Source of the DNA: a virus
Virus record (IMG/VR): IMGVR_UViG_3300035560_000001
Span: 1 to 43,200 of that record
DNA length: 43,200 nucleotides
Reading direction: 5' to 3' (one strand)
Within the stretch, counting starts at the first letter, position 1, and the number at the start of each line of letters is the position of its first letter. Below are positions 1,977-32,718 of the stretch, in pieces. The notes beneath the pieces are model-generated. The model had not been told where the DNA came from and made no database searches. It was given only the letters and a program-made list of their open reading frames with translations. The position numbers and the translations under genes are program-made.

Positions 1977-1982
1977 TATGAT

Positions 1983-5221: not shown

Positions 5222-5224
5222 AAA

Positions 5225-5419: not shown

Positions 5420-5423
5420 AAGT

Positions 5424-5741: not shown

Positions 5742-6564
5742 ATATGCAGCGACACGGCTCATTGACTTACAGAAGGCTGTGTCATGGCAACAGTTCGAGC
5801 GATGGACGCGACGCTATAGAAGAGCAGTTGAGCATCAAGTGCGAGTCTTTTTCCGAAAGCAGGAGAACGAAATTATCGGCAATATCAATGCCGGTAAGTC
5901 GATCATGAAGCATATCAGAGACTTAGCCGCTCTCAAAGGCCCGAATCAATGGCTGGACATGGTGAAGTGGCAAATAATCTTTGAGGAATATGGTCAACTG
6001 TTTCTCCCCGAGGTCATTGGAGATAAAGGGCAGATCGAGATGGAGCAGCTGCTGATTGGCATTGACTTCGACGTGGAGAATCCGCGTGTACTGGCCTTCA
6101 TCAATCAGCGCAGCTTCCGCTTCTCATTCGACACCAACGCAGGGACGCAGCAGGCACTCAGGGACATATTCAACGCGTCCATAACAGCCGGCGAGGGCGT
6201 TCCTGAGATGACGAGGCGTATCAACGAGCTATTCACGTTTAAGAAGCGTTATCAGGCAGGGCAGATCGCCAGGAGCGAGGTTATACGGGCGAGCAACTTT
6301 GCCGCAGAGCAGAGCTATATGCAATCTGGCGTTGTCTCAAAGAAGCAATGGCTCACGTCGAAAGATGCGCGTGTCTGTCCCTACTGCGAACCGATGCAGG
6401 GACGTGAGGTTGTTCTTGGCATGGTATTCTTTCAGCGAGGGGACGTGTTGCAGAATCCCGATCCTGAGAGCGTAGCGACGCTCAATCTGGACTATGAAGA
6501 CATTTTTCATCCGCCATTGCATGTGCAGTGTCGGTGTACGCTGATACCGATTCTGGCGGCATAG
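5716..6564 (+). CDS. Phage head morphogenesis protein (SPP1 gp7/Mu F-like minor head protein)
   Basis: A 282-residue minor capsid protein. The last third carries the family signature: IARSEVIRASNFAAEQSY, QWLTSKDARVCPYC (paired cysteines) and HPPLHVQCRCTL at the C terminus. The N-terminal half is helical and basic. In SPP1 and related phages this protein binds the portal and travels with DNA or helps procapsid assembly. It lies in the expected place, between portal and prohead protease. The ATG has GAGG upstream and overlaps the previous gene. Confidence 0.92.
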   Translation: MTASPALIEYAATRLIDLQKAVSWQQFERWTRRYRRAVEHQVRVFFRKQENEIIGNINAGKSIMKHIRDLAALKGPNQWLDMVKWQIIFEEYGQLFLPEVIGDKGQIEMEQLLIGIDFDVENPRVLAFINQRSFRFSFDTNAGTQQALRDIFNASITAGEGVPEMTRRINELFTFKKRYQAGQIARSEVIRASNFAAEQSYMQSGVVSKKQWLTSKDARVCPYCEPMQGREVVLGMVFFQRGDVLQNPDPESVATLNLDYEDIFHPPLHVQCRCTLIPILAA

Positions 6565-6573
6565 GAGATTGAC

Positions 6574-6807
6574 ATGATCAGCAGGGAATGGAAGGGGTAT
6601 AGCAAAGAAGACAGAGCGATGATAAAAGAGATCGTTGGCAAAGTCTGCGATGGCGAAAAACTTACAGATGATGAGATTGGATTCTTGAATGAGCGATCCT
6701 TCCATGCCATAAGATCGGAAATATCGAGGGATGGGCAAGATCTTGCATGGGATGGTTCTAGAGATTTCACTGACTTCGTGGCGTTTTTGATGACCATCGA
6801 CGATTAG
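6574..6807 (+). CDS. Small acidic hypothetical protein
   Basis: A 77-residue charged helical protein with TAGGAGATTGAC before the ATG. It sits in the head operon between the morphogenesis protein and the prohead protease. No motif, cysteine or membrane segment stands out. An assembly accessory role is possible, but nothing in the sequence shows it. Confidence 0.65.
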   Translation: MISREWKGYSKEDRAMIKEIVGKVCDGEKLTDDEIGFLNERSFHAIRSEISRDGQDLAWDGSRDFTDFVAFLMTIDD

Positions 6808-6817
6808 GAGATCTATC

Positions 6818-7750
6818 ATGAGTGTATTGACTATCAAACAGATATTGGATTCATTCGAGGGCGATATACCTGAGCTATTCACGAAGACCTTGGGCAGTCT
6901 TGCTCCAGAAGACGAGATCATCAGAAAGCAGCTTCCCGCCCGTTTGCTCAGATTCGACGAAGACGAGACGGCGGCGGTGGGCGTGATCTCCAGCATACGC
7001 AAGGACAGGGACGACGAGGTTCTGCTCTCTGAAGGCATCGACATAACTAACTATTCAGGCATCGTGCTATGGAATCATAATTACTTCGGCGGGTCGATTC
7101 CTCATGCGACTAATGAGTGGGTAGCCAAAGACCCGACTCGCGGCGTTCCATACCGGGTCGTGGCGAAGACTCAGTATCTCACGGAGATGTCGCCGCTCGG
7201 CAATGATGTCTATCGCTATAGACAGGCAGAGCATCCGCTTGGTTTTTCAGTGGGATTCAGATCGACCGAAAGCGTGAGAAAAGATCAGACGGGTTATGAC
7301 GAGGTATATAAAGACTGGCTGCCGCGTGTCAAGACCATGCTCAAAGACGAGGGGCTGAAGTCTGTTCCAGGCGAGTTCGAGAAGCCGTACAGATTCATCA
7401 CGAAATGGGAAATGTGGGAATACAGCGACGTTTATATCGGGTCTAACGTTGACGCCGTTCAGTTAGCTGTCAAAAGCGGGATATTGACTCCCGAAGAGGC
7501 TAAGTTGCTGGTGGATTTCAGCGCAGAATATCCGCCGGACGAACCGGATAAAATCGCTGTGCTTGAGAAACGAATAGCAGAACTTCAGGCATCTCTTGAC
7601 ATGCTACTCGGACAAGGGGATTTTACCGGACTGATGCCGACCATCGATCTGGAGAAGGCGTGGAATAATGCCAGGATAACGACTGGACGGAATGCCGAAG
7701 AGGTTGACGACGTAGATTTTGAGAAGATGTGGAACGAAACCACAGGATAA
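6818..7750 (+). CDS. Prohead serine protease, with coiled-coil extension
   Basis: A 310-residue HK97-type maturation protease (U35/S78-like). Candidate catalytic residues are His87 in LWNHNY and Ser144 in LGFSVGF. After the protease domain (about 40-235), a heptad-like segment (LEKRIAELQASLDMLL, about 250-270) and an acidic C terminus suggest a built-in scaffolding part. It would cleave the N-terminal delta domain of the capsid protein during maturation. Start supported by AGGAGATCTATC before the ATG. Confidence 0.92.
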   Translation: MSVLTIKQILDSFEGDIPELFTKTLGSLAPEDEIIRKQLPARLLRFDEDETAAVGVISSIRKDRDDEVLLSEGIDITNYSGIVLWNHNYFGGSIPHATNEWVAKDPTRGVPYRVVAKTQYLTEMSPLGNDVYRYRQAEHPLGFSVGFRSTESVRKDQTGYDEVYKDWLPRVKTMLKDEGLKSVPGEFEKPYRFITKWEMWEYSDVYIGSNVDAVQLAVKSGILTPEEAKLLVDFSAEYPPDEPDKIAVLEKRIAELQASLDMLLGQGDFTGLMPTIDLEKAWNNARITTGRNAEEVDDVDFEKMWNETTG

Positions 7751-7861: not shown

Positions 7862-9136
7862 ATGACACCAGCAGAAATTAGAGAATTCTTAGAGGGTAAG
7901 ATCGCGGAAATGAAGACGGCGCTAGAGGCTGATTTCAAGGGCAAGTTTGGCGATCCCGATCCTGATTACCAGAAAGATCTTGACGAGAAGATCGGAGATA
8001 TTCAGGATCTTCTCAAGGAACTGATGAAGCCGAAAGATGGCGTTCCCGGGGCAGTTGACGAGCAGGGTGATCCTTGGTGTGGGTATGACCCGCTCCTGGG
8101 CGGCGGCGATTATATGAAGGATATATATAACGCTGCATTGGGAACTCCATCAGACAAGCTCCTGAAGATCGTCAGCATCCAGGAAGAAAAGAACGTCAAG
8201 GCGGGCAAAGCCGCAGGAGACGGGCTTGAGGTTGACGATGCGGACTACGGCGGCTTCCTCGCTCCTGAAGCGTTTAGAATGTCGATATGGACGCCAACGC
8301 TTGAGCAGTCGAATCTCATGGATCGGGTTACGGTCCTGCCAGTCGCTGGGAATCAATCGGTAAGGCTGCCAGTGGTGAAGGATACGGATCACAGCGCCGG
8401 AACGGTCTACGGCGGGATCATCTTCTATGACGAGGGCGAGAATGATACTCTGACTGAGAGCCGTCCGAAGTTCGAGATGGTTGAATGGAACATGGGTATG
8501 CAGGCCGCTTTCGTCCACGCTTCAGACGCCATGATGAGGTTCACGCCCATAACTGCCGGGGCCATGCTGTCAACGCTCTATGCCGAGGCATTGGCATGGC
8601 GGATCGACTTCCTTCTGTTGAAGGGAACCGGAGCAGGACAACCGACTGGATTCCTGAATGCTGATGCAAAGGTCAGCCAGGCTAAGGAAACGGGACAGGC
8701 CGCAGATACTATCGAGTATGAAAACTTGATCAATATGTTTGCATTGGCCATCAATCCTGAAAGGACGATCTGGGCATATAATCAGACCTGCTTCCCGCAA
8801 CTTGCCAGTCTTGCTTTTGTGGTGGGAACCGGGGGAACGGCAATCAGCAAGGAAGAGGCTTTCCAGGGCAGACCTGACTTCAGAAACGAGCACATGAGCG
8901 TAATAGGCGATCTGAATGATATTGCTTTGCTAGATCCTTCAGAGTATATTGTCACAATCCCGGCGGGGATGACGGATGGAACGTGGGACACTTCGATCCA
9001 CTTCTCATTCGATACGGTCAAGACGTCATTCAGATCCGTGTTCTATATGGATGGCAAGATCAAGAGACGCTCGGCCCTGACTCCGAGATTCGGGGACGAC
9101 TTGGCTCCGGTGGTTACGCTTGCAGAAAGAGCATAA
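7862..9136 (+). CDS. Major capsid protein (HK97 fold)
   Basis: A 424-residue capsid subunit of the Phage_capsid family. Residues 1 to about 60 are strongly helical and charged, the delta (scaffold) domain removed by the prohead protease. The mature part begins around residues 115-130 (GGFLAPEAF, the typical N-arm) and contains the expected P-domain and A-domain blocks such as WRIDFLLLKGTGAGQPTGFL. The ribosome site GAGGTGAAAGGAA is very strong, fitting the high copy number. Hairpins lie on both sides of the gene (7766-7802 and 9139-9155). Confidence 0.97.
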   Translation: MTPAEIREFLEGKIAEMKTALEADFKGKFGDPDPDYQKDLDEKIGDIQDLLKELMKPKDGVPGAVDEQGDPWCGYDPLLGGGDYMKDIYNAALGTPSDKLLKIVSIQEEKNVKAGKAAGDGLEVDDADYGGFLAPEAFRMSIWTPTLEQSNLMDRVTVLPVAGNQSVRLPVVKDTDHSAGTVYGGIIFYDEGENDTLTESRPKFEMVEWNMGMQAAFVHASDAMMRFTPITAGAMLSTLYAEALAWRIDFLLLKGTGAGQPTGFLNADAKVSQAKETGQAADTIEYENLINMFALAINPERTIWAYNQTCFPQLASLAFVVGTGGTAISKEEAFQGRPDFRNEHMSVIGDLNDIALLDPSEYIVTIPAGMTDGTWDTSIHFSFDTVKTSFRSVFYMDGKIKRRSALTPRFGDDLAPVVTLAERA

Positions 9137-9138
9137 GC

Positions 9139-9155
9139 ATCCTGATATTCAGGAT
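9139..9155 (+). promoter_or_regulatory. Hairpin just after the capsid gene
   Basis: ATCCTGA (9139-9145) pairs perfectly with TCAGGAT (9149-9155) around a TAT loop, three bases after the capsid stop. There is no T run, so it is more likely a 3' mRNA stabiliser or pause than a full terminator. Confidence 0.5.
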
Positions 9156-9187
9156 TGACGATAACATTTAATTCGAGGTGATAAGTT

Positions 9188-9610
9188 ATGAGAGATCCAG
9201 GACGCGCATCGGGGCTGTTTTCCATAATCGGCCCTGCTGTTATAAACCCGGCGGCAGAGACGAGCACTGACGCCAGCGCCTATGTTGACATGAGCGGCTA
9301 TGAATTTGGAGAGATGCAGATCTCCGCCGTGTTGACAGATACCAAGACTGCCATCGCTCAACTGACGTGCGCTTCGGATGCAGCAGGAACGGGCAAGGCG
9401 GACGTGACCGGCAAGACGGTGACGCTCACTGGAGCGACGAGCGATCTTGAACAGGTGGGCAAGATACGATTCAACGTCCACGACCTGATCGGGATTGCCG
9501 CCACCAAATACTTCGTGGGTGTGGATATTACCACGAACCAGAACAGCGATTTGATCTGTGCCACTGCGCGACTCAGCGGAGCGGATTACCAGAGCGATCA
9601 ACTGCCATAA
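9188..9610 (+). CDS. Probable capsid decoration/head-associated protein
   Basis: A 140-residue beta-rich protein immediately downstream of the capsid gene with a strong CGAGGTGATAAGTT ribosome site. The sequence is rich in Ala, Thr and Asp with alternating hydrophobic residues and no enzymatic motif, as in small head-decoration or cement proteins. I do not recognise a named family. Position and composition support a virion structural role; decoration is inference. Confidence 0.6.
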   Translation: MRDPGRASGLFSIIGPAVINPAAETSTDASAYVDMSGYEFGEMQISAVLTDTKTAIAQLTCASDAAGTGKADVTGKTVTLTGATSDLEQVGKIRFNVHDLIGIAATKYFVGVDITTNQNSDLICATARLSGADYQSDQLP

Positions 9611-19826: not shown

Positions 19827-20204
19827 ATGGCTAAAGCGCATGGAAAAGGATCGAGTTTAACATTTCCGAATCTCACCGTCGGCGATTTTGCCTTCACCAT
19901 CAACGACGTAGCCGATGTAGTAGAGGTAACAGATTTTGCAAACGGCGCTGCGGGCTTCAAGGCGTGGCTGGCCGGCTTGAGAGATACTGAGTACACCGTC
20001 CAGAGTAAATGGGATGATACTCCAAACACTGCGAAAGCGGGCGACTCAGGCACGCTGGTATGTCAACTATCAGGGGCAGGAAATCTGAAATTTTCCCAAA
20101 CCGCCATATGCACTGGACACACCGTCACGTCAGATGTCAACGACGCTATTGTTGATGAGTGGACATTCAAGGGCAACGGCGCTCTGACCGTACCGGCGGC
20201 ATAA
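19827..20204 (+). CDS. Tail tube-like protein, short paralog
   Basis: A 125-residue beta-rich protein with the motif VVEVTDFANGAAGFK and a later SDVNDAIVDEWTFKGNG, features of compact phage tail tube proteins. The next gene encodes a longer relative with the same motifs. Ribosome site GAAAAGGATTGAAAG and a near-copy of the AAGGGGATAGA motif precede it. One of the two paralogs is probably the major tail tube protein; the other may be a minor ring or alternative tube subunit. Confidence 0.75.
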   Translation: MAKAHGKGSSLTFPNLTVGDFAFTINDVADVVEVTDFANGAAGFKAWLAGLRDTEYTVQSKWDDTPNTAKAGDSGTLVCQLSGAGNLKFSQTAICTGHTVTSDVNDAIVDEWTFKGNGALTVPAA

Positions 20205-20216
20205 GAGGTGATTTAA

Positions 20217-21134
20217 ATGGCCAAGCGACACGCGAAGACAGGCGCTTTATATTTCACGCCCCGAATAAACGCCATCACTATCGCATTCACGGATGATGAC
20301 CCTGATACTATCACAGATTCAGATAATGGGTTCGTGGATGCTGGATTTAAGGAAGGCGATCTCGTAACCGTCTCTGGATCTACCTCTAACGATGGGAACT
20401 ACACCATTGACACCGGCGGAGTGGCTGCTGGTGTATTGACGTTAGTGATAGGGGATTCGCTCACAGCGGAAATCGCCGGTGATAACGTCACCATCTTCAC
20501 AGCATTGCCTGGCCAGTTAGTAGCTGGCTTCTATGGTTGGGGTTTCACCGATGTTATAGACGTGGTAGAAGTGACCGATTTCGTGGATGGCGCTGCTGGA
20601 TTCAAGAAGTATATCACAGGTCTGAAAGACTGGACGGGCGACGCCGCTGGCTACTGGCTCACGGACGACTTCCATCATTACATGATAGGAAAGGAATTGA
20701 TCGTCCAATTCTTCGAAGTATACAATACCGCTCCAAATGTAACAACAGTTCATTTGCTCAGGGGCAAGTGTATCGTGACCGGGATCGACGTTGACTCAGA
20801 CGTGAATGACGCCATACACGAAAACCTTAGCTTTCAGGGCACAGGGACAGCCGAGATACAGGGTACAGGGATCGCCTTTGTAGACGGCGGTGGCGGGGCA
20901 GATACCATAACGGATACCGGCAACGGTTTTATCAGGGCAGGATTCCAGGAAGGGCATAAGATAACCGTGAGTGGATCGACTACCAGCGACGGCGATTATC
21001 CCATAGTCTCGGTCGTTGCAGGGACGATCACGCTGGCGACGGGATCGCTGCCAGGAAACGAGGCAGCGGGAGACGTTGTTTCGATAAGCGCACAGATTCA
21101 ACTCGTACCTCGCACAACAGCATGGGCGACGTAA
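20217..21134 (+). CDS. Tail tube-like protein with two inserted/appended beta domains
   Basis: A 305-residue paralog of the preceding protein: VVEVTDFVDGAAGFK and SDVNDAIHENLSFQGTG match it. A beta domain of about 72 residues is inserted near the N terminus (about 21-94; pattern DNGFVDAGFKEGDLVTVSGS) and a second copy is appended at the C terminus (about 218-290; GNGFIRAGFQEGHKITVSGS). The two domains are clearly related to each other. Extra domains projecting from tail tubes are known in siphoviruses (Ig-like in lambda gpV). GAGGTGA ribosome site. Confidence 0.8.
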   Translation: MAKRHAKTGALYFTPRINAITIAFTDDDPDTITDSDNGFVDAGFKEGDLVTVSGSTSNDGNYTIDTGGVAAGVLTLVIGDSLTAEIAGDNVTIFTALPGQLVAGFYGWGFTDVIDVVEVTDFVDGAAGFKKYITGLKDWTGDAAGYWLTDDFHHYMIGKELIVQFFEVYNTAPNVTTVHLLRGKCIVTGIDVDSDVNDAIHENLSFQGTGTAEIQGTGIAFVDGGGGADTITDTGNGFIRAGFQEGHKITVSGSTTSDGDYPIVSVVAGTITLATGSLPGNEAAGDVVSISAQIQLVPRTTAWAT

Positions 21135-21821: not shown

Positions 21822-23753
21822 ATGGGATTCAATAAAATAGCCGAAGCTTTTGTTGAGATCAAGGGCGACAAGGGCAAATTCAGCGCGACTATCAGGCAGG
21901 GGAAGCGCGAGACGAGCAACTTCGCCAAGAGCGCAACCAAAAGCCTCAAGCGCGTTTCGATTGGCCTTGCCGCTATTGCTACGGCCGCCACTGTCGCCGC
22001 TGTTGCTATCGGAGTCAAGCTCACCAGGGCGATTATCAGAGCAGGACAGGCGACCATATCTGCGGCTGTGAAATATGATAAGTTGAACCGGGGCCTAGTC
22101 GCTGTTACGGGAAGCGTCGCCGAAGCCAATAAGCAACTGATCAGACTCAGGAAAGTAGCAGAACTTCCGGGACTTTCATTTGAGGCGGCTATCCGGGGAT
22201 CGATCAATCTGCAAGCGGCAGATCTATCGGCACAAATGGCAGAGCGAAGCCTCACGGCTTTTGGGAATGCTATCGTCACGATGGGCGGAGGCGTTCCAGA
22301 ACTACAGCGTGTAAATCTCCAGTTAGCACAGATGGCAGCAAGATCGAGTGGATTCGGCGAGGAAATCAGAACATTGCGCGCCATCGTTCCGCAGATAGGG
22401 CCTATACTGAGAAAGGCTTTTGACGGGAAAGCTCTCGAAGAGGTAAGCATTACAGGAAAAGAATTACTGGAGGTAATCGTCTCCGGGCTTGAGGATATTC
22501 CCAAAGCCACGGGCGGAGTTGCGAACGCGTTGGATAATCTCAAGATAGAATTCGATTTACTGAAGGCGGCTATCGGCAAGACAATGCTCGGTATAGTAGA
22601 AGATACGGCCAATAGCCTTGCGAGCGTCTTGAAAAAAATCGCTGCTATGATCCCTGAGTGGGGGAAATACAAGGATCAGGTTTCCAAAACATTCGCCGAT
22701 CTCATCCCTATAGTGGCAAAAGAAACAGCAAGCATGATGACCAGTATGATGAAGATAGTACTCGCTTCCGCTCGGCTAATATGGGAGCCAATAAAGTTTA
22801 GCTTCTTCACGATGATGAACTCCTTGACGACAGAAGCAGCTCTCGGATTTGCAAAATTATTGAAAAAGATGGGAGTGGGAACGGAAGAAGGCTTCCAGAA
22901 GGCAGTCGCAGCAGTTCGGGAGGCTGATAAAGAAATACAGGACAATATTGAAAAGACTTTCGAGGAAGGTTTTACGAATGCAATGAAGAAAGCTCTTGCA
23001 GCTCTTGAGGTAGAAGGCCCGAAAATAGCTTCATCATGGGAGAGAATGCTTGCGGCGATTGCTTCCGCATTCGACAGGATAAAAATAGAAGAGGCAATAG
23101 CTGAAACAGTCAAGAAAACAACCGCCGTTCTGGAAGCAATCGATCCAGCGAAATTGAAGTTTCTAATATTTGAGCCAGACGATCCGAAGAAACTGGATGC
23201 CGTCCTGAAAGACTCAGAGAAGCGGATCATCAGCTTCCGTGATATGATCGATAAAGAGATGAAGGACCGGCAGGGCAGGAGTCTTGCGAATTTCCAGGAG
23301 ATGCTGAGAGAGCAAGAGCGAGCAGCGCAAGACTTCGCCGACGCCATCCGCCCGGCTTTTGAGAATATGTTTATAGACTTCTTCTCCGGCAATACGAAGA
23401 ACCTCTGGCAAAACTTCTTTTCAGATCTCAAACGCATAGCTATCAGGGAACTGGCGAGCATCTTCGCGATTCAGCTTCTGAAGGGACTACTCACAGGCGG
23501 GACGAGCCTTGCAGCGACAGGATTGGGCGCGTCGTTATCTGCATTAGCTCCTCAGTCCATCGACCCGACTTCCAGAGCCATTGGCGGTGCGGTATCCAGG
23601 GGAGCGCGGGCTGTTGGGAACTTCTTAGAAGGCGGGACTATCATCGTCAACGATCAAGACCTATCGAATTTTGACGTGCAACGGATGACCAAACAAGTGG
23701 AGCAGGGGATAGGCCCGGCGCTTCGTCAGGCTGCCGCTGATGGTATCCAATGA
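21822..23753 (+). CDS. Tape measure protein
   Basis: A 643-residue largely helical protein. A basic N terminus is followed by an Ala-rich hydrophobic segment (about 46-65) and the pattern LRKVAELPGLSFEAAIRGSI, common in tape-measure N-terminal domains. A second hydrophobic block lies near residues 555-590 (LLKGLLTGGTSLAATGLGAS). The length would set a tail of roughly 95-100 nm at 1.5 angstrom per residue, typical for a siphovirus. It directly follows the chaperone genes, as expected. Confidence 0.92.
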   Translation: MGFNKIAEAFVEIKGDKGKFSATIRQGKRETSNFAKSATKSLKRVSIGLAAIATAATVAAVAIGVKLTRAIIRAGQATISAAVKYDKLNRGLVAVTGSVAEANKQLIRLRKVAELPGLSFEAAIRGSINLQAADLSAQMAERSLTAFGNAIVTMGGGVPELQRVNLQLAQMAARSSGFGEEIRTLRAIVPQIGPILRKAFDGKALEEVSITGKELLEVIVSGLEDIPKATGGVANALDNLKIEFDLLKAAIGKTMLGIVEDTANSLASVLKKIAAMIPEWGKYKDQVSKTFADLIPIVAKETASMMTSMMKIVLASARLIWEPIKFSFFTMMNSLTTEAALGFAKLLKKMGVGTEEGFQKAVAAVREADKEIQDNIEKTFEEGFTNAMKKALAALEVEGPKIASSWERMLAAIASAFDRIKIEEAIAETVKKTTAVLEAIDPAKLKFLIFEPDDPKKLDAVLKDSEKRIISFRDMIDKEMKDRQGRSLANFQEMLREQERAAQDFADAIRPAFENMFIDFFSGNTKNLWQNFFSDLKRIAIRELASIFAIQLLKGLLTGGTSLAATGLGASLSALAPQSIDPTSRAIGGAVSRGARAVGNFLEGGTIIVNDQDLSNFDVQRMTKQVEQGIGPALRQAAADGIQ

Positions 23754-24883
23754 ACGCGACAGCACTCAGAAGAAACCTGTCAAAAGCCTCCGTAAAGCTA
23801 CGCTATAAAATCCTATTTGATTCCGTAGATAAGACCGATCTGCTGGTGAGCCTGGGGACCATACGCAGGGACGTCAATCTGTCTACTGGAACGGCGTTGG
23901 TGACGTTCAATAACTCCGGCGGCTGGTGGAACTTCCTGCATCAAACGAATGTAGCCCTCCGGGATACAGTGGAGATCCAGGTCTACGTCGACGGCGATGC
24001 GGCAAACGTCTTGACTCTCTTCTCAGGGACGTGCTGGTATCCTAAATTCGAGGGGTCTAACGTCACTATAACCGTCAAAGATCATAGCGGCAGCTTTCTT
24101 GATCGGAAGGTGGGAAGCAACGAGAGTCCTTATACATTCTGGCAAGCGCAGGGACACACTGTTGATGCTGTGGTATGGCGGATGCTTACTCATGCCGATC
24201 TCGGAAATCTTGATGGGCTTAACGGTCCTGCAAACACAGATATTGACTACGGCTCATTCGCTCGTTGGAGAGACGTTCATATCATCCCGAACGATTACGA
24301 AGTAAAAGGAATGCCAAAGGGTCAGACCATAGGCCAGTTATTGATGATCCTCTGCCAGATGAGCCATAGCTACATCTGGATCAATAATGATGGCAAGTTC
24401 GAATTCGCTCCGCCTTACGAGCCGGGATATTCATATAGCGAAGGCAACACAGGGAAGCGGGGAAAGCCTGGACATGGACGGGAACTGGTAATACGGGACG
24501 ATCTGATCATAAACGACATCACGGTCGGGTATGGTCATAATTTTACGTTGGGAAGCTGGGTCGCCTTCGTCAACGATACGGATGCAACCAGTATCGCTAA
24601 ATATGGGTTATCGCCAAAGACCATCGAAGGCCGCATATTCGCTCATCAGACAGTGGAAAGCGCGACCTCTGACCGGGATGCGACGCTGGTGGATTATGCG
24701 TATCCTCTCAGGTTTCTCACATTAACTCCCGGCTTCCCGGCTATCATGGAGGACCTGGGTAGGCATATAGCCGTGAGCGATACATTGAAAGAGATTAGCA
24801 ATCAATCCGCAGAGACGGAACAGATCAATTACGATCTCGATACCTGGGAGATCACAATCAAAGCGAGGTGGCCCTGGCCATGA
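23750..24883 (+). CDS. Tail tip/baseplate hub-like protein
   Basis: A 377-residue protein overlapping the tape-measure stop by ATGA. It starts with paired beta domains (LVSLGTIRRDVNLSTGTALVTF), then TVKDHSGSFLDRKVG, and a centre with PKGQTIGQLLMILCQMSHSY and WINNDGKFEFAPP, which resembles the gp27/late-control-D fold of tail hubs. In siphoviruses this position usually holds the distal tail or hub protein. The exact family cannot be settled by eye. Confidence 0.7.
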   Translation: MNATALRRNLSKASVKLRYKILFDSVDKTDLLVSLGTIRRDVNLSTGTALVTFNNSGGWWNFLHQTNVALRDTVEIQVYVDGDAANVLTLFSGTCWYPKFEGSNVTITVKDHSGSFLDRKVGSNESPYTFWQAQGHTVDAVVWRMLTHADLGNLDGLNGPANTDIDYGSFARWRDVHIIPNDYEVKGMPKGQTIGQLLMILCQMSHSYIWINNDGKFEFAPPYEPGYSYSEGNTGKRGKPGHGRELVIRDDLIINDITVGYGHNFTLGSWVAFVNDTDATSIAKYGLSPKTIEGRIFAHQTVESATSDRDATLVDYAYPLRFLTLTPGFPAIMEDLGRHIAVSDTLKEISNQSAETEQINYDLDTWEITIKARWPWP

Positions 24884-24905: not shown

Positions 24906-25583
24906 ATGACAAAGGAAGAACGCAAACGGCGAGATAAAGCAATATTATTCGGACGGATAAACGGAGATAAGCTTCATATATTAGCGTCGCGATATGAGCT
25001 TTCACATGGACGCATTTCTAAAATCCTGCAAAGTCAAGGAATGCGTTCCCATGAAATGACGGCGATAAAACATAAGCAAGTTATATCTATGCTCAAAGAA
25101 GGGAAGACGAGAAAAGAAATTGCAGTAGAGATGGGCTATTATATTACAACCGTTGAGGCTTTAGCGTTGAAATACGGCTTTAGCTGGAAGCCACAGAAAA
25201 TCCTATGCAAAATTTGTGGGGATGAATTTATGCAAAAGACATATCATCAGTCTTGTTGTTCTCTTGGTTGTTCTTACGAATATAAAAAACAGCGTACCAT
25301 GCGTTATATTACAAAAACTTGCGAATTCTGCGGGAAGGCATATAGATTACAAGTATCTGTAAAATACAGGAAACGTTTTTGTACTACATCCTGCGCCCAA
25401 AAAGCATTAAATAAGAGTAAAGAAATTCGCAATGATGAAATATGGTGGTTGAGGGAAGAGCAAAAATTGACATTTGTGCGTATAGGCGAAATATTTGAGA
25501 TGGGTTGTTCTACGGCACGTTCTATATATATAAAGCAAAAAAAGATTCGAGCTTTGGAAGACGCGGAACTAATAGGAGTCTAG
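24906..25583 (+). CDS. Predicted DNA-binding protein: HTH, two zinc ribbons, HTH
   Basis: A 225-residue basic protein in AT-rich DNA inserted between tail genes and introduced by AAGGGGATAGA. Helix-turn-helix-like segments lie at about 20-45 (LASRYELSHGRISKIL), 55-92 (EGKTRKEIAVEMGYYITTV) and 183-212 (TFVRIGEIFEMGCSTARSI). Between them are two zinc-ribbon-like units: C101-x2-C104 with C117/C122, and C139-x2-C142 with C159/C163. No nuclease motif (HNH, GIY-YIG) is visible. It looks like a horizontally acquired moron, either a regulator or the DNA-binding half of a homing-type enzyme. Confidence 0.65.
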   Translation: MTKEERKRRDKAILFGRINGDKLHILASRYELSHGRISKILQSQGMRSHEMTAIKHKQVISMLKEGKTRKEIAVEMGYYITTVEALALKYGFSWKPQKILCKICGDEFMQKTYHQSCCSLGCSYEYKKQRTMRYITKTCEFCGKAYRLQVSVKYRKRFCTTSCAQKALNKSKEIRNDEIWWLREEQKLTFVRIGEIFEMGCSTARSIYIKQKKIRALEDAELIGV

Positions 25584-25584: not shown

Positions 25585-25980
25585 GTGAGTGGATACATGG
25601 AACTCAGCGACGGGACCAGCAGCATCAGCTTCTCTCCGCTGGTCAATCCAGGGATACGCCGACCTGGCCGCAGGACGCGTGGGCATAATCAGTATGATGG
25701 CGGGCCGTGTCAATACTGGGATGCTGAGGGAGCGTTTCGAGAAGACTTCTCGCTCAATAACATATCGAAAGCCGATGCCGACCAGCTTAACGAGTGGTGG
25801 CAGCAGTTACGCATCCTGGTGTTCAAGGCGGATCTGGACGGAGATCCTACCGGAACCATATACGCCAGGATAAACCCGGCCGGCGGGCGGCCGTTTCAAT
25901 TCATGTTTGGCCAGACGGTAGATACTAAATTCGAGGCGACGGTTACTGTAGTTGAAGTAAGCTCGTCGTCCAGTGCATAA
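25585..25980 (+). CDS. Tail protein, short paralog flanking the glycosyltransferase cassette
   Basis: A 131-residue protein with GTG start (AGGAG six bases upstream). It matches the N-terminal 120 residues of the protein at 31445: both open with (Y)xLSDGxSS, contain RG, NISKADAD/NITKTRAD followed by a WW pair, a TK near residue 110 and end in EVSSxS. It ends SSSSSA right after the shared region, while the paralog continues with a long serine-rich tail. Probably a tail tip component; precise role unknown. Confidence 0.7.
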   Translation: MSGYMELSDGTSSISFSPLVNPGIRRPGRRTRGHNQYDGGPCQYWDAEGAFREDFSLNNISKADADQLNEWWQQLRILVFKADLDGDPTGTIYARINPAGGRPFQFMFGQTVDTKFEATVTVVEVSSSSSA

Positions 25981-25991
25981 GGGGATAGAAA

Positions 25992-26174
25992 ATGATTTAC
26001 AGGATTATAGGCACAGTTCTTTTTGCTGTGGCAATGTTCTTTTTTCTCCGATTTGCGTGGCGTAAGAATATGAGGGATTGGGAATACATACAGGAAAGCC
26101 GGCGGAAACATGATGAGTGGATGATAGAATGCGGTCGGCATCAAGCTGAATGGGAGCAAAAGAAAAGGGGATAG
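25992..26174 (+). CDS. Small membrane protein between boundary motifs
   Basis: A 60-residue protein with one N-terminal membrane helix (about residues 4-23, very Phe-rich) and a charged, Trp-containing tail. It starts after one AAGGGGATAGA and ends KKRG plus the TAG inside the next copy, so the whole gene is bracketed by the 11-mer. It recalls the small membrane gene at 15-212. Function unknown. Confidence 0.65.
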   Translation: MIYRIIGTVLFAVAMFFFLRFAWRKNMRDWEYIQESRRKHDEWMIECGRHQAEWEQKKRG

Positions 26175-26177
26175 ATC

Positions 26178-27167
26178 ATGAAGACAGCATTTGCAGGCCC
26201 ATGGATAGGCGAATTTGGCTGGGAGATCATGACGTGGATTCCGTATCTCAGGAAGCTGTGTCGGGAATATGACAAGATGATTATATCAACATTCGAGGGA
26301 ATGGAGGCCTTGTATACGGGATTTCATTGTGAGCTTGAATTCAATCCGCATAATTATATGACGCGGCTTGACGACTGGATGAATCCTGATATTACTTTTT
26401 CCCTTCCGCTTGGCATACCAATAGAGGCAGTGCGGATAAATCCCATCAAAGAATATCGCATCGACGGCGAGTACGTCAGATACGGCTCGCCAGTCGTCAA
26501 AGATGTTAGCGTGCTATTCCATGCGCGGGGTATTGAGAAGGGAGCGTCAAAGAACTGGCCTCGAGAGAAGTGGGAAAAACTGGCGAAGGAATTTCCCGAA
26601 GCCATCTGCATCGGTTCGCCAAAGGATTTGAATGTATATGAAGGCATGGCAGACTGGACATTGCACCAAGACGCTAGAACGGCAGATCTAAATCAACTCA
26701 TGGACTTGATAGCATCTGCATCCATAGTCATCGGCGGATCATCCGGCGTGATGCACCTCGCCCTCATGTGCGGGACGCGGATCGCCACCTGGGGGAAGTG
26801 CAACAACTTCGGCGACACGCTGGAGAATAGATATAAAGAGACGTGGAATCCGTTTGGAACTCCGGTGACGTGGGTCGGCGATACATGGAATCCTGAGCCA
26901 GAGGATATTCTAAAGGCATTACAGCCTCATAACGTACCCGCTCCACAGACGTTAAGTGCTGTATACGATGCTGTACAATCCGGGCAGTATATCATCTCCA
27001 CCGCATTTATGGGCAAGAGAGATGGCAAGGAAGCGGTATTGACGCGCTGCTCGGCAACCAATTTCCCTGATGACAGGCTGGATGAAGCTGCAAGGAAAAT
27101 GTCCAGAGACGTAGATGGATCAATCGCCCAGGTAAAGGCGGAGAGGATACCTGTCTCATGGCGATAA
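26178..27167 (+). CDS. GT9-like glycosyltransferase
   Basis: A 329-residue GT-B fold enzyme resembling family 9 (heptosyltransferase-type). The N terminus (MKTAFAGPWIGEFGWEI) fits an acceptor-binding Rossmann fold. The second half has KNWPREKWEKLAKEF and IGGSSGVMHLA (185-195), the usual nucleotide-sugar-binding loop of GT9. Donor and acceptor are unknown. It leads a run of glycosyltransferase genes inside the tail region and overlaps the next gene by ten bases. Confidence 0.85.
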   Translation: MKTAFAGPWIGEFGWEIMTWIPYLRKLCREYDKMIISTFEGMEALYTGFHCELEFNPHNYMTRLDDWMNPDITFSLPLGIPIEAVRINPIKEYRIDGEYVRYGSPVVKDVSVLFHARGIEKGASKNWPREKWEKLAKEFPEAICIGSPKDLNVYEGMADWTLHQDARTADLNQLMDLIASASIVIGGSSGVMHLALMCGTRIATWGKCNNFGDTLENRYKETWNPFGTPVTWVGDTWNPEPEDILKALQPHNVPAPQTLSAVYDAVQSGQYIISTAFMGKRDGKEAVLTRCSATNFPDDRLDEAARKMSRDVDGSIAQVKAERIPVSWR

Positions 27168-29206
27168 AAATGGAATGGCATAACGCCCAATTTGCAGGCG
27201 ATCTGATTGCAGGGACAGCGGCCCCCAGAGACATAGCGGCAGTTCGTCAATGTGAGGTCTGTAGTTTCGAGGCTGTGATGCCGCGCAAGGCGCGAGAGGT
27301 CGTGATCGGTTGCCCAGAATGCGGAGAGGAATCACTGCGGCGCAAGTTCAGGGTGCGATTCAATACGGGAGGCAAGCCGCATTTTCAGCAGATATTCTAC
27401 GGCAATCCTTATCTGGAGAATTTCTCAGGCACTCCGGATATATCATTGAGATTGGGAACGCAGATCGCGTGCAACCGATCCAGCAGGGGCGTCCATATCA
27501 GCGAGGCGTTCCGGTTTGCTATCATGGCAAAGACGGGTTTTGAGTTCCCGATGGGACCGCTAATTCCCGACTTGCATCTGACTGAAGACGAGAAGAAGCT
27601 GCCGCCGATTATTGACGGAAGATACTGGCTGGTATGTACAGGCAAGCGCCCGCCGTTTACGTCAAAGTTCTGGCCGCCTGAACGCTGGCAAGCCGTGGTT
27701 TCGGAATTATCTGATATAACCTTCGTCCAGATAGGACTCGATGACGGCAAGCCGCATTCAGAGCATTATCATCCTGAGATATACGGCGACAACGTGATAA
27801 ACATGATCGGCGAGACTCAGGATCCTAGATCGGGCATTCGGGATCTATTCCGGCTTGTCGATCAGAGCGACGGATGCTTATCTCTCGTCAGTAGCTTGAT
27901 GCACATAGCCGCAGCATTCGGCAAGCCCTGTGTGATTCCAGCAGGAGCGCGTGAGCCGACGAGATTTGAGCAGTATAGCTTTCACAAGTATATCCATCAC
28001 CAGGGAGCTATGCGGTGCGTCGGAAAGGATGAAAAAGGATTTGAGCGCGAGCATAAAGGAAATCACTCATGCTGGAAGCAGCGGACGGATGCCTGTCCCA
28101 ATCTGGAGCAGGGTTATCCGAAGTGCATGATCATGATAGAGCCGCATCAGGTTAGCAACGCCATTAAGAGTTTTTACATCGGCGGAGCATTGGAACGTCC
28201 AGCAGAACGAGCGAGAAAGGTCGTTAAACGCCGTCCAGTCTTCAAGATGGTATGTAACGCCCACGCATACGGAGGAGGGGAGCGGTCTAGCGTGTGGTTA
28301 GCTAATAGGATGCTCCTGGAGGGCTACGAGGTACACTTAATCCCGTCTAAGAGTGTCAACCGAGAATTCAGCGTGCAGCTATCCCCGCACGTCAAGCTGG
28401 ATTCACAGGAGCATCCCCTCACTGAGCCGTGTGATATATTCATGCTCTATGCAAATGACATGCCAATAGCGTTTGATGGTCGATACAAATTGCTGGAGAA
28501 GGTGGATGCTAAGAAGAAGATCATGGTCCTGAATTACCGGCTGTTTCAGGCCGGCGAGGTCGAGTGGAGCAAGACGTGGGATCAATATATCTTTCTGTGT
28601 TCCGATCTGGAGCAGGAGTTCAAAAAGAGGGTACCCGCGTGCGACTCTATAATATTGCCGCCGCCGGTGGATCTGGCGCCGTTTCTGGATGCGGATCTGG
28701 GATCGCTGGACAAGACCTTGCACGTTGTCAGGATCGGCTCTCAGGGATCTGTCAAGTACCCGGAGAATATTAGATCTATCGTGGAGCGAATAAAACTGGA
28801 GCATCCAGCCATCAGGTTTACGTTCATGGGCGGGGACGAGAGATTGAACGGGCTTGAGTACGTCGATAACCTGAAGGCATATAGTATGCCTGTCCTGGAC
28901 GTTCTGAAGCGCGGCTGCTTGTTCTGGTACATATTGCCGCCTGATTACCTGGATAATGGCCCGCGCGTTATCATGGAGGCGATGGCCGCTGGCTTGCCTA
29001 TTGTCGCGGATAATTACGGCGGGGCGAAGGATAGACTGACGCCAGAGACGGGCTGGCTATGCGATTCGGTAGAGGATCACATCCAGGCTATTACGACCGT
29101 CAACAGCAAAGAGACGACGAAGATGGGATTGAAAGCCAAAGAACACGCCCGGATACATTTCGATCCCGAAAAGTGGATCGGAGCTATTCTGGGGAATTGG
29201 GGGTAG
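27158..29206 (+). CDS. Zinc ribbon + GT9-like + GT4-like glycosyltransferase fusion
   Basis: A 682-residue multidomain enzyme. Residues 32-55 hold a zinc-ribbon-like pair of CxxC motifs (CEVC, CPEC). Residues about 70-345 look like a GT9 domain (FWPPERWQAVV, then VSSLMHIAAAFGKP). Residues about 362-682 are a GT4 domain: AYGGGERSSVWLANRML for acceptor binding and IMEAMAAGLPIVADNYGG (605-622) for donor binding, with Glu607 in the EX7E-like position. Two transferase domains in one chain imply sequential addition of two sugars. Cys-rich segment 305-323 may be a second metal site. Confidence 0.85.
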   Translation: MAIKMEWHNAQFAGDLIAGTAAPRDIAAVRQCEVCSFEAVMPRKAREVVIGCPECGEESLRRKFRVRFNTGGKPHFQQIFYGNPYLENFSGTPDISLRLGTQIACNRSSRGVHISEAFRFAIMAKTGFEFPMGPLIPDLHLTEDEKKLPPIIDGRYWLVCTGKRPPFTSKFWPPERWQAVVSELSDITFVQIGLDDGKPHSEHYHPEIYGDNVINMIGETQDPRSGIRDLFRLVDQSDGCLSLVSSLMHIAAAFGKPCVIPAGAREPTRFEQYSFHKYIHHQGAMRCVGKDEKGFEREHKGNHSCWKQRTDACPNLEQGYPKCMIMIEPHQVSNAIKSFYIGGALERPAERARKVVKRRPVFKMVCNAHAYGGGERSSVWLANRMLLEGYEVHLIPSKSVNREFSVQLSPHVKLDSQEHPLTEPCDIFMLYANDMPIAFDGRYKLLEKVDAKKKIMVLNYRLFQAGEVEWSKTWDQYIFLCSDLEQEFKKRVPACDSIILPPPVDLAPFLDADLGSLDKTLHVVRIGSQGSVKYPENIRSIVERIKLEHPAIRFTFMGGDERLNGLEYVDNLKAYSMPVLDVLKRGCLFWYILPPDYLDNGPRVIMEAMAAGLPIVADNYGGAKDRLTPETGWLCDSVEDHIQAITTVNSKETTKMGLKAKEHARIHFDPEKWIGAILGNWG

Positions 29207-29208
29207 AC

Positions 29209-30414
29209 ATGAAGATATGCTTTTTCACGATGGCGAATGAAAGTATGATGGCACAGGCTCGACACTTGATCCTGTCTGGCGATATTGCTGGACGACCGAT
29301 ATGGTTCTTTCGCATTCCAGAAGACCATCCAGATCCGAAGCGATATAAGCTGGAATTGCTGATGGGGGATCTATTGCCAGATGCGGATAAATACGTCTAC
29401 CTGGACGCTGATAGTCTAATGCTTCAGTATGGCGACTGGGAGGCCGGCGACTGCTGGGGGGCTAAATACGAGCACTGGGGACGTGGCAGCGGATATGGAA
29501 ATGTATTCACAGGGACGGGATTCGATAAGTTCCTTGCGTTGTATAAAGAATATGGTTCGCCGCCGAGGTTAAACTCAGGGTGTGTCGTTCTATCTGGAAA
29601 GATACGCAAGCAGTTTGCGGTAGACTGGCTTGAGTTTTGTCTGCGGATCGATGCCATGAGTTCTGAGTGGTTGTGGATCAGAGATCAGATGGGCTATATG
29701 TTTGCACACATGAAATACAGACTGCCCATACTGCCGGCGAGGTTTAGCTGTATCGTCAAGCGCGAGATCCTCGGCGACCATTACATATCACTCCATGCGG
29801 CAGGACATCCTAAAGGCGCGGCGCTGGCACAATATACCCATGCTATCGACAGGATCCTGGGTGGCTCCATATCAGAGATGGCATATAACAGCCCTGATTG
29901 TCGTTGGCAAGTAATAGCTGATCTGATCATGAAGCACGCGGAAGATCCCGCTCATCCAGTGATCGCAGAGATGGGCATATTCAAGGGCGAAACTACGCGG
30001 CATCTGCTGAGGATATTCCCCGCACTCAAGATCTATTGCGTTGATAACCGGCAGCCGCCGGGGGCAGAGAAAAAAGCCAATGACGCAGAGGAGGTCTGGG
30101 GTGCATTGATGCAGGAAGATCATGATCGGATCGTCTATTACAAAGAGAATGTTCTGGACATTTCATTCCCTGAAAAGCTGGACGGCATCTTCGACGATTC
30201 GGATCATAGGACGGATGCGGTAGTAGCTCATGCTCGCAAACATTTTGGAGCGGTAAAGCGCGGTGGCTTTTATGCTGTGCATGATATAGATTTCGATAAC
30301 GGTTCATATTATGATGTATATAGCGTGAGGGATGCACTTGATATTCTCTGGGCTGCTGGGATATATGAAACAGGCCCGGACTGGATGGCGTGGACGATCA
30401 AGCGGGGATGTTGA
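29209..30414 (+). CDS. GT8-like glycosyltransferase fused to SAM methyltransferase-like domain
   Basis: A 401-residue protein; ATG 29209 after GGGGG is preferred over in-frame starts inside the previous gene. Residues 1 to about 215 form a GT-A domain with the DxD-type motif YLDAD (64-68), NSGCVVLSG (122-130) and HAAGHPKG (197-203), as in GT8. Residues about 245-400 resemble a class I methyltransferase (Methyltransf_24 type): AEMGIFKGETTRHL, YCVDN, DGIFDDSDH and GGFYAVHDID. The pair could add and then methylate a sugar. Confidence 0.8.
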   Translation: MKICFFTMANESMMAQARHLILSGDIAGRPIWFFRIPEDHPDPKRYKLELLMGDLLPDADKYVYLDADSLMLQYGDWEAGDCWGAKYEHWGRGSGYGNVFTGTGFDKFLALYKEYGSPPRLNSGCVVLSGKIRKQFAVDWLEFCLRIDAMSSEWLWIRDQMGYMFAHMKYRLPILPARFSCIVKREILGDHYISLHAAGHPKGAALAQYTHAIDRILGGSISEMAYNSPDCRWQVIADLIMKHAEDPAHPVIAEMGIFKGETTRHLLRIFPALKIYCVDNRQPPGAEKKANDAEEVWGALMQEDHDRIVYYKENVLDISFPEKLDGIFDDSDHRTDAVVAHARKHFGAVKRGGFYAVHDIDFDNGSYYDVYSVRDALDILWAAGIYETGPDWMAWTIKRGC

Positions 30415-30489
30415 AGAACTACGCGATTGAATCAAGACGAATTCTGTTATGGGTCTCGAATGTATGATTTTTTATAGGGAGGATAGATT

Positions 30490-30804
30490 ATGGGTAAAAA
30501 TACAAAGACAATCGAAGCGAAGTATCATATTGGACAGGTCGTATGGTTCTATGTGATGGCTGGTTCTACTGATGATATATTCAGCTATCCTTGTATCGGT
30601 AGAGGCCGGATAACTTATATTATACCTGCTGACAGATATATGGGATACAGTAGAGAACCTGAGATATTATATGGTATGAATGGGTGCTTGGATGGGCTAC
30701 CAATTCCTGAATCGAATATTTATCCAGATTCAATCGACGAAGCTATTGACCGATTGAATGCCAACTGGGACTGCGATTGGAGAGAATATAAAGGGGGATG
30801 CTGA
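30490..30804 (+). CDS. Hypothetical protein in the glycosyltransferase cassette
   Basis: A 104-residue protein in AT-rich DNA, preceded by GGGAGGATAGATT, a variant of the recurring leader motif. The sequence opens as a small beta-barrel-like domain (YHIGQVVWFYVM, then GRGRITYIIP) and ends in an acidic Trp-rich tail. It does not look like a transferase. Possibly an inserted moron. The 75 bases upstream hold no recognisable signal. Confidence 0.6.
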   Translation: MGKNTKTIEAKYHIGQVVWFYVMAGSTDDIFSYPCIGRGRITYIIPADRYMGYSREPEILYGMNGCLDGLPIPESNIYPDSIDEAIDRLNANWDCDWREYKGGC

Positions 30805-30837
30805 CGGCATTGACAGCGCGTGCCGCTGAGGATTAAA

Positions 30838-31443
30838 ATGGAACATCGGGAACAGATAGGGATACTGATCGGGGCCTGGGATCGATATGCCGTAGAGATC
30901 GGAGCGTTGGCAAATTCTCTGCGGGATGCGGGATTCTATGTCGTCATAGGCTACGATGCGAAAGCGGTCATGCCTTCGGCCACCGTGGTGAATAGCTGCG
31001 ACTTTTTCTTTTCTGGCGGTATATGGCGAAACAAGCAGAGCGGGCATTTGAGCCAGATACAAACGGGGTTGGCACATCTAAAGGAGCGGGGCTATAAATA
31101 CACGCTATCCACAACAGGCGACGCTCTAATCGCGAAGCCGGGCGGCATTCCATCATTGGTCAATGTGCTTGACGATCAGAATGTGATAACGTGCCACTGG
31201 CGGGATCAGTGTGGAACAAATACATTCTTCGGCAAAACGGCAGAACTGCTCGGAGTTTATCTGGATATCCCAACAGGCCCGCCGCAGATTGAGCGGAAAT
31301 TCAGAAAGGCTCTCCGCAGAAACCACATCACATATACGATACATCCTTGCAGCGCCGAAGATCTGGGAATCTGGGGGAAGACGATAGGCTTTCAGCGCGG
31401 GAATGGTAACTACAAGCCGCCTATTTTACCCTTGAGGTATTGA
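30838..31443 (+). CDS. Putative GT-A glycosyltransferase
   Basis: A 201-residue protein starting at ATG 30838 with TGAGGA five bases upstream; a GTG at 30820 is possible but lacks a ribosome site. The order of strands (IGILIGAWDRYAVEIGALANS, then FYVVIGYDAK, and KYTLSTTGDALIAKPGG with a possible D-x-x metal motif) suggests a nucleotide-sugar transferase with a GT-A fold. Support is context and fold pattern only. It ends one base before the serine-rich tail gene. Confidence 0.55.
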   Translation: MEHREQIGILIGAWDRYAVEIGALANSLRDAGFYVVIGYDAKAVMPSATVVNSCDFFFSGGIWRNKQSGHLSQIQTGLAHLKERGYKYTLSTTGDALIAKPGGIPSLVNVLDDQNVITCHWRDQCGTNTFFGKTAELLGVYLDIPTGPPQIERKFRKALRRNHITYTIHPCSAEDLGIWGKTIGFQRGNGNYKPPILPLRY

Positions 31444-31444
31444 C

Positions 31445-32263
31445 ATGGCTGATCTTTACAAATTGAGTGACGGCAATAGCTCGGTGGATCTATCACCGAC
31501 CCGGGGCTTGAATATCCCTGAGAACCGGATCAGAGAGCACGTCACTACCAAGCGCGGCACGTCTGAGGATTTCGAGTGGGGAAACGCCGAGCAGTATGAC
31601 GTACCGCTGATCAATATCACGAAGACGCGGGCAGATATACTCCTGGGCTGGTGGGAGGATATGGAGGTACTGACCTTCACTCCGGATCAGGGAGCGCTTG
31701 GGACGACCTACCAGATGATCATCGACGGCATCGAGCGGCCCATCAATATGTGGCATCATCTTTTCGACACGAAATACGCTGGCATGATGAGGCTGAACGA
31801 GGTCAGTAGCCAGTCGTTTTCATCATCTCATATATCAGTATCCAGAAGCCGGTCATGTTCCAGCATTGATGAGTCAACAAAATACTGGACATCATCGAGT
31901 AAGTCATGCAGCGTTTTTCTTGCAGATTCGAGTCGCTCAAGTTCGGTGGGCTGGGACGATTCATATTCAACGTCCCTGTCATGGTCTGAATCACGCTCAT
32001 GCTCTACAACGCGCTCATGCTCCGTATACTCCAGCAGTGTATTCCCTACAGGCTACGAGACTTCATCGTCATGCGAGGATCAATCGTCTTGCGAGGATCA
32101 ATCGTCAAGCGGCCATGTCTCATCAAAAGGAAGCTCCCGATCTTCGGGAGTTATACTGACCGAGACTTTCAGCCAGTCATGCAGTCTGCATCCGTCATCA
32201 AGCGATACGAGCGTGTTACCAGCGCAGGAGTCATGCTCCGAATCGGCGGGAGGTATCTCGTGA
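31445..32263 (+). CDS. Tail protein with 150-residue serine/cysteine-rich C-terminal tail
   Basis: A 272-residue protein. Residues 1-120 are paralogous to the tail protein at 25585 (shared LSDGxSS, NITKTRAD, WW, EVSSxS). Residues 121-272 contain about 61 Ser (about 40%) with about ten Cys and many Arg, Asp and Glu, in patterns such as SRSRSCSS and the duplicated CEDQSS. This is a low-complexity, probably extended stalk that could carry O-linked sugars. It directly follows four transferase-type genes. The stop overlaps the next GTG start. Cysteines could cross-link chains or bind metal. Confidence 0.75.
   Translation: MADLYKLSDGNSSVDLSPTRGLNIPENRIREHVTTKRGTSEDFEWGNAEQYDVPLINITKTRADILLGWWEDMEVLTFTPDQGALGTTYQMIIDGIERPINMWHHLFDTKYAGMMRLNEVSSQSFSSSHISVSRSRSCSSIDESTKYWTSSSKSCSVFLADSSRSSSVGWDDSYSTSLSWSESRSCSTTRSCSVYSSSVFPTGYETSSSCEDQSSCEDQSSSGHVSSKGSSRSSGVILTETFSQSCSLHPSSSDTSVLPAQESCSESAGGIS
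32072..32107 (+). repeat. Two tandem 18-bp repeats in the serine-rich tail
   Basis: Units TGCGAGGATCAATCGTC(T/A) at 32072-32089 and 32090-32107 encode CEDQSS twice. Such short perfect units can change copy number by slippage. Confidence 0.7.
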
Positions 32264-32718
32264 GAAAAGATCGGTATATGGACAGGCATGATAGATCGAC
32301 TACATTCGATTCTGAATCTCATAGCGCTAGTACTACGGCGCATCAGTATGGTAGCGCTCCTGGAAATGCCGTCAAGACGGCCCAAGTCATTATCGATCAA
32401 CCCGATCAATTAATAGAGTCAGACATTCCGCTTCTTTTCATTCATATTGATTTCGCTCCCAATGGGATCACGCTGATTTCATGCGGAATATCTACCAGCG
32501 CATCAAGTACCTATTCCGTAGACTTTGAAATCAGGGACGCACCGAATGATGGATCGCCCACAGCAGTTGAGACAGTAGCAACTTCAGGATCATTAGAGGC
32601 AGAGGACGACGGCACGTTGAGTGCGACGGCTGTAGCTGTTAGCGAATACGTTTACGCAAAGCTACCGGCGACAGACGTGGATCAAGTAGGAATCTGGATA
32701 ACTTACACGATAGATTGA
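32260..32718 (+). CDS. Tail/receptor-binding region protein, unknown
   Basis: A 152-residue protein; the GTG at 32260 overlaps the previous stop (GTGA) and has GGGAGGT a few bases upstream, better than the ATG at 32278. The N terminus is polar and His/Ser-rich. The rest is a beta-sandwich-like domain (IPLLFIHIDFAPNGITLISCGI, then YSVDFEIRDAPNDG). Position suggests a tail-tip or fibre part. No family recognised. Confidence 0.65.
   Translation: MRKDRYMDRHDRSTTFDSESHSASTTAHQYGSAPGNAVKTAQVIIDQPDQLIESDIPLLFIHIDFAPNGITLISCGISTSASSTYSVDFEIRDAPNDGSPTAVETVATSGSLEAEDDGTLSATAVAVSEYVYAKLPATDVDQVGIWITYTID

Follow-up and report, generated by a model that had tools for sequence, protein, structure and literature searches.

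Why would a phage keep a run of glycosyltransferase genes inside its tail module, between two copies of a tail-type gene of which only one continues into a long serine-rich tract? The locus that raises this question lies at positions 25585–32263 of IMG/VR record IMGVR_UViG_3300035560_000001, an uncultivated virus analysed over its full 43.2 kb (hereafter the window). The record contains genes for terminase, portal, head-tail connectors, tail terminator and tape measure, and thus belongs to a long-tailed phage; the nearest deposited terminases are <40% identical to its own, and 0 tRNA genes were found in the 43.2 kb. Our answer, to which we give a probability of roughly 0.7 from sequence comparison, is that the locus encodes a module for glycosylating protein of the phage's own particle, with the Ser-rich tract as acceptor. 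Its features are as follows; handles such as L002 stand for other records described below.

25585–25980, plus strand: left paralog, a tail-type domain of 131 amino acids (aa) ending in EVSSSSSA; 69% identity in L002, which shares the SSSSSA end.
26178–27167, plus strand: GT9 glycosyltransferase with N-terminus GPWIGEFGWE; PF01075, 30.4 bits against a cut-off of 22; relatives in L002, L011, L110 and L111.
27158–29206, plus strand: GT9-GT4 fusion glycosyltransferase, the marker enzyme of the module; PF01075, 28.0 bits against 22 (N-terminal half); PF00534, 30.9 against 26.4 (C-terminal half).
29209–30414, plus strand: GT-A-like domain (motif only) fused to a methyltransferase, in an exchangeable slot; PF13578, 24.8 bits against 26.3 (second half).
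30820–31443, plus strand: small putative GT-A-fold glycosyltransferase, start possibly at ATG 30838; AlphaFold model and Foldseek; relatives in L002, L111 and L110.
31445–32263, plus strand: right paralog, 272 aa, consisting of a tail-type domain (1–120) and a Ser/Cys-rich tract (121–272), the proposed substrate; recognized by paralogy, with the tract kept in L002.
31805–32260, plus strand: the Ser/Cys-rich tract proper, 152 residues; recognized by composition, with Ser conserved across codon changes.

The proposed acceptor is best approached through its paralogy. A first-pass annotation of the sequence had described two paralogous tail genes at 25585–25980 and 31445–32263, and this holds at exactly those coordinates, the left gene matching the first 120 residues of the right one with 33% identity over 125 aa (E = 2e-15). 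Its description of the left copy as ending in SSSSSA is likewise correct, as is the extension of the right copy by 152 residues with 61 Ser; the Cys residues number 8, not about ten, and there are 10 Thr. The bias of the tract toward Ser over Thr counts in favor of Ser-directed glycosylation, and its 100-aa windows have the highest Ser content of any frame in the window. The structure model of the tail domain is of low confidence (pLDDT, the predicted local distance difference test, 46); with that limit, the left-paralog model best matches PDB entries for tail-tube and baseplate proteins and for related proteins of phages or contractile systems.

A close relative provides a first comparison. 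L002, a 20.5-kb record of another uncultivated phage, carries the cassette block in the order of the window: left paralog, GT9, GT9-GT4, GT-A, right paralog and downstream gene. Because both paralogs are present there in the same order, their duplication predates the split of the two phages. In the tract, 42 Ser are kept between window and L002, 25 despite a changed codon and 6 despite a switch between TCN and AGY, and the alignment of the two tracts scores 249 against a shuffled mean of 63 (standard deviation 11). Since Ser is conserved despite these codon changes, the tract is genuine coding sequence; a frame artefact, which we considered as an origin of this open reading frame (ORF), is ruled out at the codon level, its codon usage nonetheless being atypical. 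Every Cys of the two tracts (20/20; 8 in the window, 12 in L002) stands in the context S-C-(S/E/D), and the C-terminal ESCSESAGGIS is identical in both right paralogs. The enzymes differ in one slot: the L002 record contains no homolog of the window's GT-like/methyltransferase fusion, and a radical SAM gene (PF04055, E = 4.6e-16) takes its place there.

The enzymes themselves were assigned with unequal firmness. The annotation had listed three glycosyltransferases and one candidate, and two of these, the GT9 protein and the GT9-GT4 fusion, exceed their Pfam cut-offs. The candidate (30820–31443) gave no sequence match; its AlphaFold model is confident (pLDDT 80, predicted template-modelling score 0.82), nearly all of its best 50 PDB matches are GT-A glycosyltransferases (Foldseek, E about 1e-6, TM about 0.5–0.6), and on this model the protein would have a GT-A glycosyltransferase fold. 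The label GT8 for 29209–30414 found no profile support and is a motif reading: the first half holds a DxD-like YLDADS motif and is 37% identical to a stand-alone L011 protein, and a Pfam search with 29209–29860 or with this relative gave no match even at E = 10. The methyltransferase half falls just under its Pfam cut-off.

These assignments bear on a different answer to the opening question, namely that the enzymes alter host surface polysaccharide (the core or O-antigen of lipopolysaccharide, LPS), either to exclude superinfection or to change the receptor, next to a Ser-rich protein that is an unrelated neighbor. Modification of host surface sugars by phages is known, and LPS heptosyltransferases give the GT9 domains their best scores (heptsyl_trn_II, 1.4e-8 for 26178–27167). 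Profile comparison cannot separate LPS-type from protein-type GT9 heptosyltransferases for the cassette enzymes. The setting of the cassette tells against this alternative. Its genes lie in tandem on one strand inside the tail module with intergenic gaps of −10 to +75 bases, and such short gaps and small overlaps suggest late co-expression. No flippase-like or other multi-spanning membrane protein was found in the cassette, where no enzyme has a 19-residue hydropathy peak >1.6; the sole ORF that does encodes 60 aa with one strong membrane segment (25992–26174, between the left paralog and the GT9 gene, no homolog in L002). The position of the module among late tail genes and its lack of a flippase-like protein argue against host-surface modification, as does the recurrence of Ser-rich tracts beside the enzymes in several lineages (see below). 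This alternative, raised by the annotation itself, is weakened, and we consider it unlikely. A role in glycosylating phage DNA or a host factor is very improbable: some phage glycosyltransferases hypermodify DNA, according to work cited in PMC12619734, whereas the enzymes of the window lie in a tail block and are associated with Ser-rich proteins.

To look beyond L002, public viral contigs were searched with enzyme and tail-domain sequences only, never with Ser composition. The N-terminus of the GT9 protein as query led to L011, and the GT9 half of the fusion to L110, L111 and the fragments L112 and L113. Judged by sequence, L011 and L110/L111 appear to be two phage lineages only distantly related to the window; full-length identity of the GT9-GT4 protein is 75% in L002, 38% in L011 and 47% in L110/L111. 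Searches with tblastn against 50,697 deposited phage records gave no match for the GT9 and GT9-GT4 proteins, nor for the tail domains and the GT-like/methyltransferase protein. A wider GT9 scan returned mostly general bacterial GT9 proteins, and a scan of bacterial genomes with the tail domain yielded nothing informative.

Both lineages place the enzymes next to Ser-rich proteins of other architecture. In L011, GT9, GT9-GT4, a separate glycosyltransferase (8619–9323), a Methyltransf_24 protein (6421–7032) and an epimerase adjoin a LamG protein whose poly-Ser tract is long. Upstream lie tail tip genes of lambda-like type (NlpC/P60, tip attachment protein J), among which the one that comes first after the tape measure encodes a terminal poly-Ser tail. 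As a separate observation, LamG domains are inserted in both lambda L/J-like tail tip proteins of this record (305–5884). In L110 and L111, the GT9-GT4 gene stands 124–130 bases upstream of genes whose products, 946 and 1157 aa long, contain SSSSSSSSI-type repeats by the dozen; more poly-Ser proteins follow, among them a LamG type in L110. L111 also has a radical SAM gene (42% to that of L002), two GT-A relatives, a methyltransferase and a possible sulfotransferase, and in L110 a GT-A relative is fused to a methyltransferase. Ser content peaks at 46–47 per 50 residues in the tracts of these three records. Since the bodies that carry the tract differ between phages (tail domain, LamG, adhesin-like), the Ser-rich tract is the common factor.

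A further record, G009 (the record of L014; 114.8 kb), encodes a 543-aa GT9 protein that matches the A4 profile at E = 2e-23. Four of its sense ORFs have Ser/Cys linkers such as SSSCSSWVSSSCSS, one of them about 7 kb from the GT9 gene on the same strand, and the linkers (SSSCSSW) look strikingly similar in sequence to the S-C-S pattern of the window. Across loci L137–L142 of this record (IMGVR_UViG_3300027847_002504), at least four ORFs with SSSCSSW-type linkers are of tail type; LamG-like domains, several glycosyltransferases and sulfotransferase-like genes are also present.

The association was then counted by scanning whole records for their best Ser window and counting sense tracts. A sense Ser-rich tract occurs in 5/6 records encoding a GT9-GT4 protein homolog (L002, L011, L110, L111, G009 and L112) vs. 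0/7 with only a distant GT9 (Fisher p = 0.005, or 0.010 without L002, for a grouping set after the data were seen). L113 is uninformative, because the record ends inside the gene, and the single high Ser score among the seven distant-GT9 records, a frame in G004 (30/50), was left out of the count, as it runs antisense to an acidic run. Measured from the stop of GT9-GT4, the Ser-rich gene is 2.2 kb away in the window, 1.6 kb in L002, 0.7 kb in L011 and 0.12–0.13 kb in L110/L111.

The same numbers address the reading that the tracts are ordinary unglycosylated flexible linkers and that the enzymes modify another virion protein, e.g., the capsid. Poly-Ser spacers can serve as simple linkers, and a glycosyltransferase-type block exists in MW202801.1 after the capsid gene region, where no Ser-rich tract accompanies it. 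This block (L169, 19640–24303, in a groundwater podovirus) comprises radical SAM, glycosyltransferase, PhyH, methyltransferase, NodB-like and glycosyltransferase genes directly after the capsid gene region and is possibly a capsid glycosylation module. Its proteins, however, do not match the GT9 or GT9-GT4 proteins, and in five phages the Ser-rich gene lies 0.1–2.2 kb from the GT9-GT4 gene, with no case found of the fusion without one. This reading is improbable, somewhat more so than host-surface modification. The enzyme pair and the tract stay constant while bodies and accessory enzymes vary, so a role of the tract as acceptor is the simplest account.

The comparison also bears on several points of the first-pass annotation. 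Its proposal that the phage sugar-coats its own tail protein gains from enzymes and tract that appear to travel together across divergent lineages with differing tail proteins. The co-occurrence it pointed to, of the fusion enzymes with Ser-rich tail paralogs, is borne out for GT9 and GT9-GT4 with Ser-rich genes in L002, L011 and L110/L111; the paralog pair recurs in L002, where the GT-like/methyltransferase fusion has no counterpart. Enzymes without a neighboring Ser-rich gene, which it had named as evidence to the contrary, were found only in records that do not have the GT9-GT4 fusion (distant GT9 paralogs and the stand-alone GT9-domain protein of L112). Its suggestion of entry through a tail-gene duplication is unsupported, because L011, L110 and L111 carry the same enzymes with no flanking paralog pair, though it may hold for the lineage of the window.

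Several points weigh against virion glycosylation with the tract as acceptor. The module is known here from genes and sequence comparison; the records are few and non-independent (window and L002 form one lineage, L110 and L111 another), some are fragments, and the grouping behind the Fisher statistic was, as stated, chosen afterwards. The tail assignment of the paralogs derives from gene position and the low-confidence model. In GT9 profile comparisons, the match to LPS heptosyltransferases equals or exceeds that to protein heptosyltransferases. Finally, L112 encodes a GT9-domain relative (33%) and has no Ser-rich gene in its 47-kb record; this protein corresponds to the GT9 half only, with no GT4, and the phage that encodes it carries a gene set with DNA polymerase and a RecA-like protein.

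If the tract is indeed an acceptor, the tail domain of the right paralog would assemble into the tail-tip region and display the flexible Ser/Cys-rich tract. The GT9, GT9-GT4 fusion and GT-A enzymes, made late alongside the tail proteins, would put a sugar on the tract serines and then extend it, and exchangeable tailoring enzymes would diversify the sugar between related phages. We infer the tract as acceptor, serine as the site, the enzyme order, the virion location, the sugar and the linkage. The tailoring slot holds a methyltransferase in the window, a radical SAM in L002, a methyltransferase and epimerase in L011, and a methyltransferase, radical SAM and possible sulfotransferase in L111. 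Because the tract type is the same in phages with and without radical SAM, methyltransferase and radical SAM best fit sugar tailoring. Sactipeptide-like action of radical SAM on the S-C-S cysteines was considered and rejected, as the tract of the window has the motif although the enzyme is missing there, and L111 has the enzyme together with poly-Ser repeats of S/I and not S/C type. As for purpose, the sugars would most likely form a hydrophilic brush, which may shield or stiffen the exposed parts of the tail or else bind a host surface. At somewhat short of even odds, we tentatively picture a mobile phage module in which GT9 and GT9-GT4 glycosylate poly-Ser or Ser/Cys-punctuated brushes on tail proteins, and the sugar coat differs from phage to phage because the tailoring enzymes (methyltransferase, radical SAM, epimerase, possibly sulfotransferase) are rapidly exchanged in their slot; where the brush is of the Ser/Cys type, its conserved S-C-(S/E/D) sites may be S-glycosylated or lock the brush by disulfides.

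Among known systems, TibC/AAH are GT9-like heptosyltransferases that heptosylate many serines, not threonines, of a repetitive bacterial surface protein (PMC4358343). The Ser-over-Thr tract fits, because GT9 enzymes that modify protein Ser but not Thr do exist; unlike TibC/AAH, the window combines GT9 with GT4 in one fusion protein, and the proposed acceptor is encoded by the phage. The TibC/AAH profile TIGR04414 (cut-off 200 bits) gave only 18–26 bits, at best 26.4 in L011 and 18.2 in the window. A conserved Cys cluster follows the GT9 core throughout the phage family and aligns with TibC, whose iron finger comprises Cys339/342/358/370 (PMC4358343); we rejected it as a TibC-type hallmark, since it is also common in bacterial GT9 controls, at least four Cys following the core in 74/80. 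In these 80 bacterial loci (L028–L107), the pattern is a C-terminal CxxC...C...CM, in 74/80, at a site similar to the iron finger.

Virion glycosylation has precedent in mycobacteriophages (Che8 type; Freeman et al., 2023), where glycans are reported at the C-termini of capsid and tail-tube subunits, as cited in PMC11256854 and PMC12619734. Glycosyltransferases are phage-encoded there too, and the C-terminal glycans are comparable to the C-terminal tract of the window; unlike that system, the proposed acceptor here is a dedicated Ser- or Ser/Cys-rich tract, and the glycosyltransferases are GT9-based. Gram-positive serine-rich repeat glycoproteins (Fap1, GspB and relatives) likewise pair a Ser-rich acceptor with adjacent dedicated glycosyltransferases and show strain-specific glycosylation; these are cell-surface adhesins with accessory Sec export and GtfA/GtfB initiation, whereas in the window the proposed acceptor is a tail-associated phage protein and the cassette enzymes match GT9 and GT4 profiles. 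In gtr-type serotype conversion, temperate phages act on a lipid-linked sugar at the host membrane with a flippase and membrane enzymes. Both cassettes are phage-borne glycosyltransferases, and unlike gtr that of the window has no multi-spanning flippase or membrane glycosyltransferase. We found no paper in the open-access literature linking poly-Ser phage proteins to glycosyltransferases; virion glycosylation is already established, and the GT9/poly-Ser module appears to be a novel form of it.

The genes around the cassette place it in the tail module:

21822–23753, plus strand: tape measure protein; PHROG tape measure profiles, E = 2.4e-6.
23750–24883, plus strand: tail-tip protein, next after the tape measure gene; by position, 62% identity in L002, order kept.
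24906–25583, plus strand: HNH-type gene between tail tip and left paralog; PHROG 1271 HNH, E = 1.8e-9.
32260–32718, plus strand: unknown-function gene downstream of the right paralog; GTGA overlap with the Ser-rich gene, 52% identity to L002 13093–13551, position kept.

The HNH-type gene has no homolog in L002 and is for this reason placed outside the cassette; since its two flanking genes directly abut there, it represents a recent insertion or loss. Upstream, 19827–21134 contains two adjacent major-tail-protein-like genes, the second of which (305 aa) contains a copy of the first one's domain along with inserted segments, and L002 gives the same cross-match. Near-identical gene leaders, AAGGGGATAGA(AA/TC)ATGA, occur at 24888, 25974 and 26160, each ahead of a gene in the tail/cassette block, and the record start holds the similar AAGGGGAATAGAATGG.

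Few examples of glycosylated phage particles are known, and their substrates can usually not be guessed from sequence. With GT9 and GT9-GT4 as markers and an acceptor marked by its composition, the module, a compact Ser-directed glycosylation kit as we read it, would provide a sequence rule by which tail glycosylation could be predicted in uncultivated phages, together with the target protein and the enzyme that determines the sugar. It would also make the reason for phage tail glycosylation directly testable.

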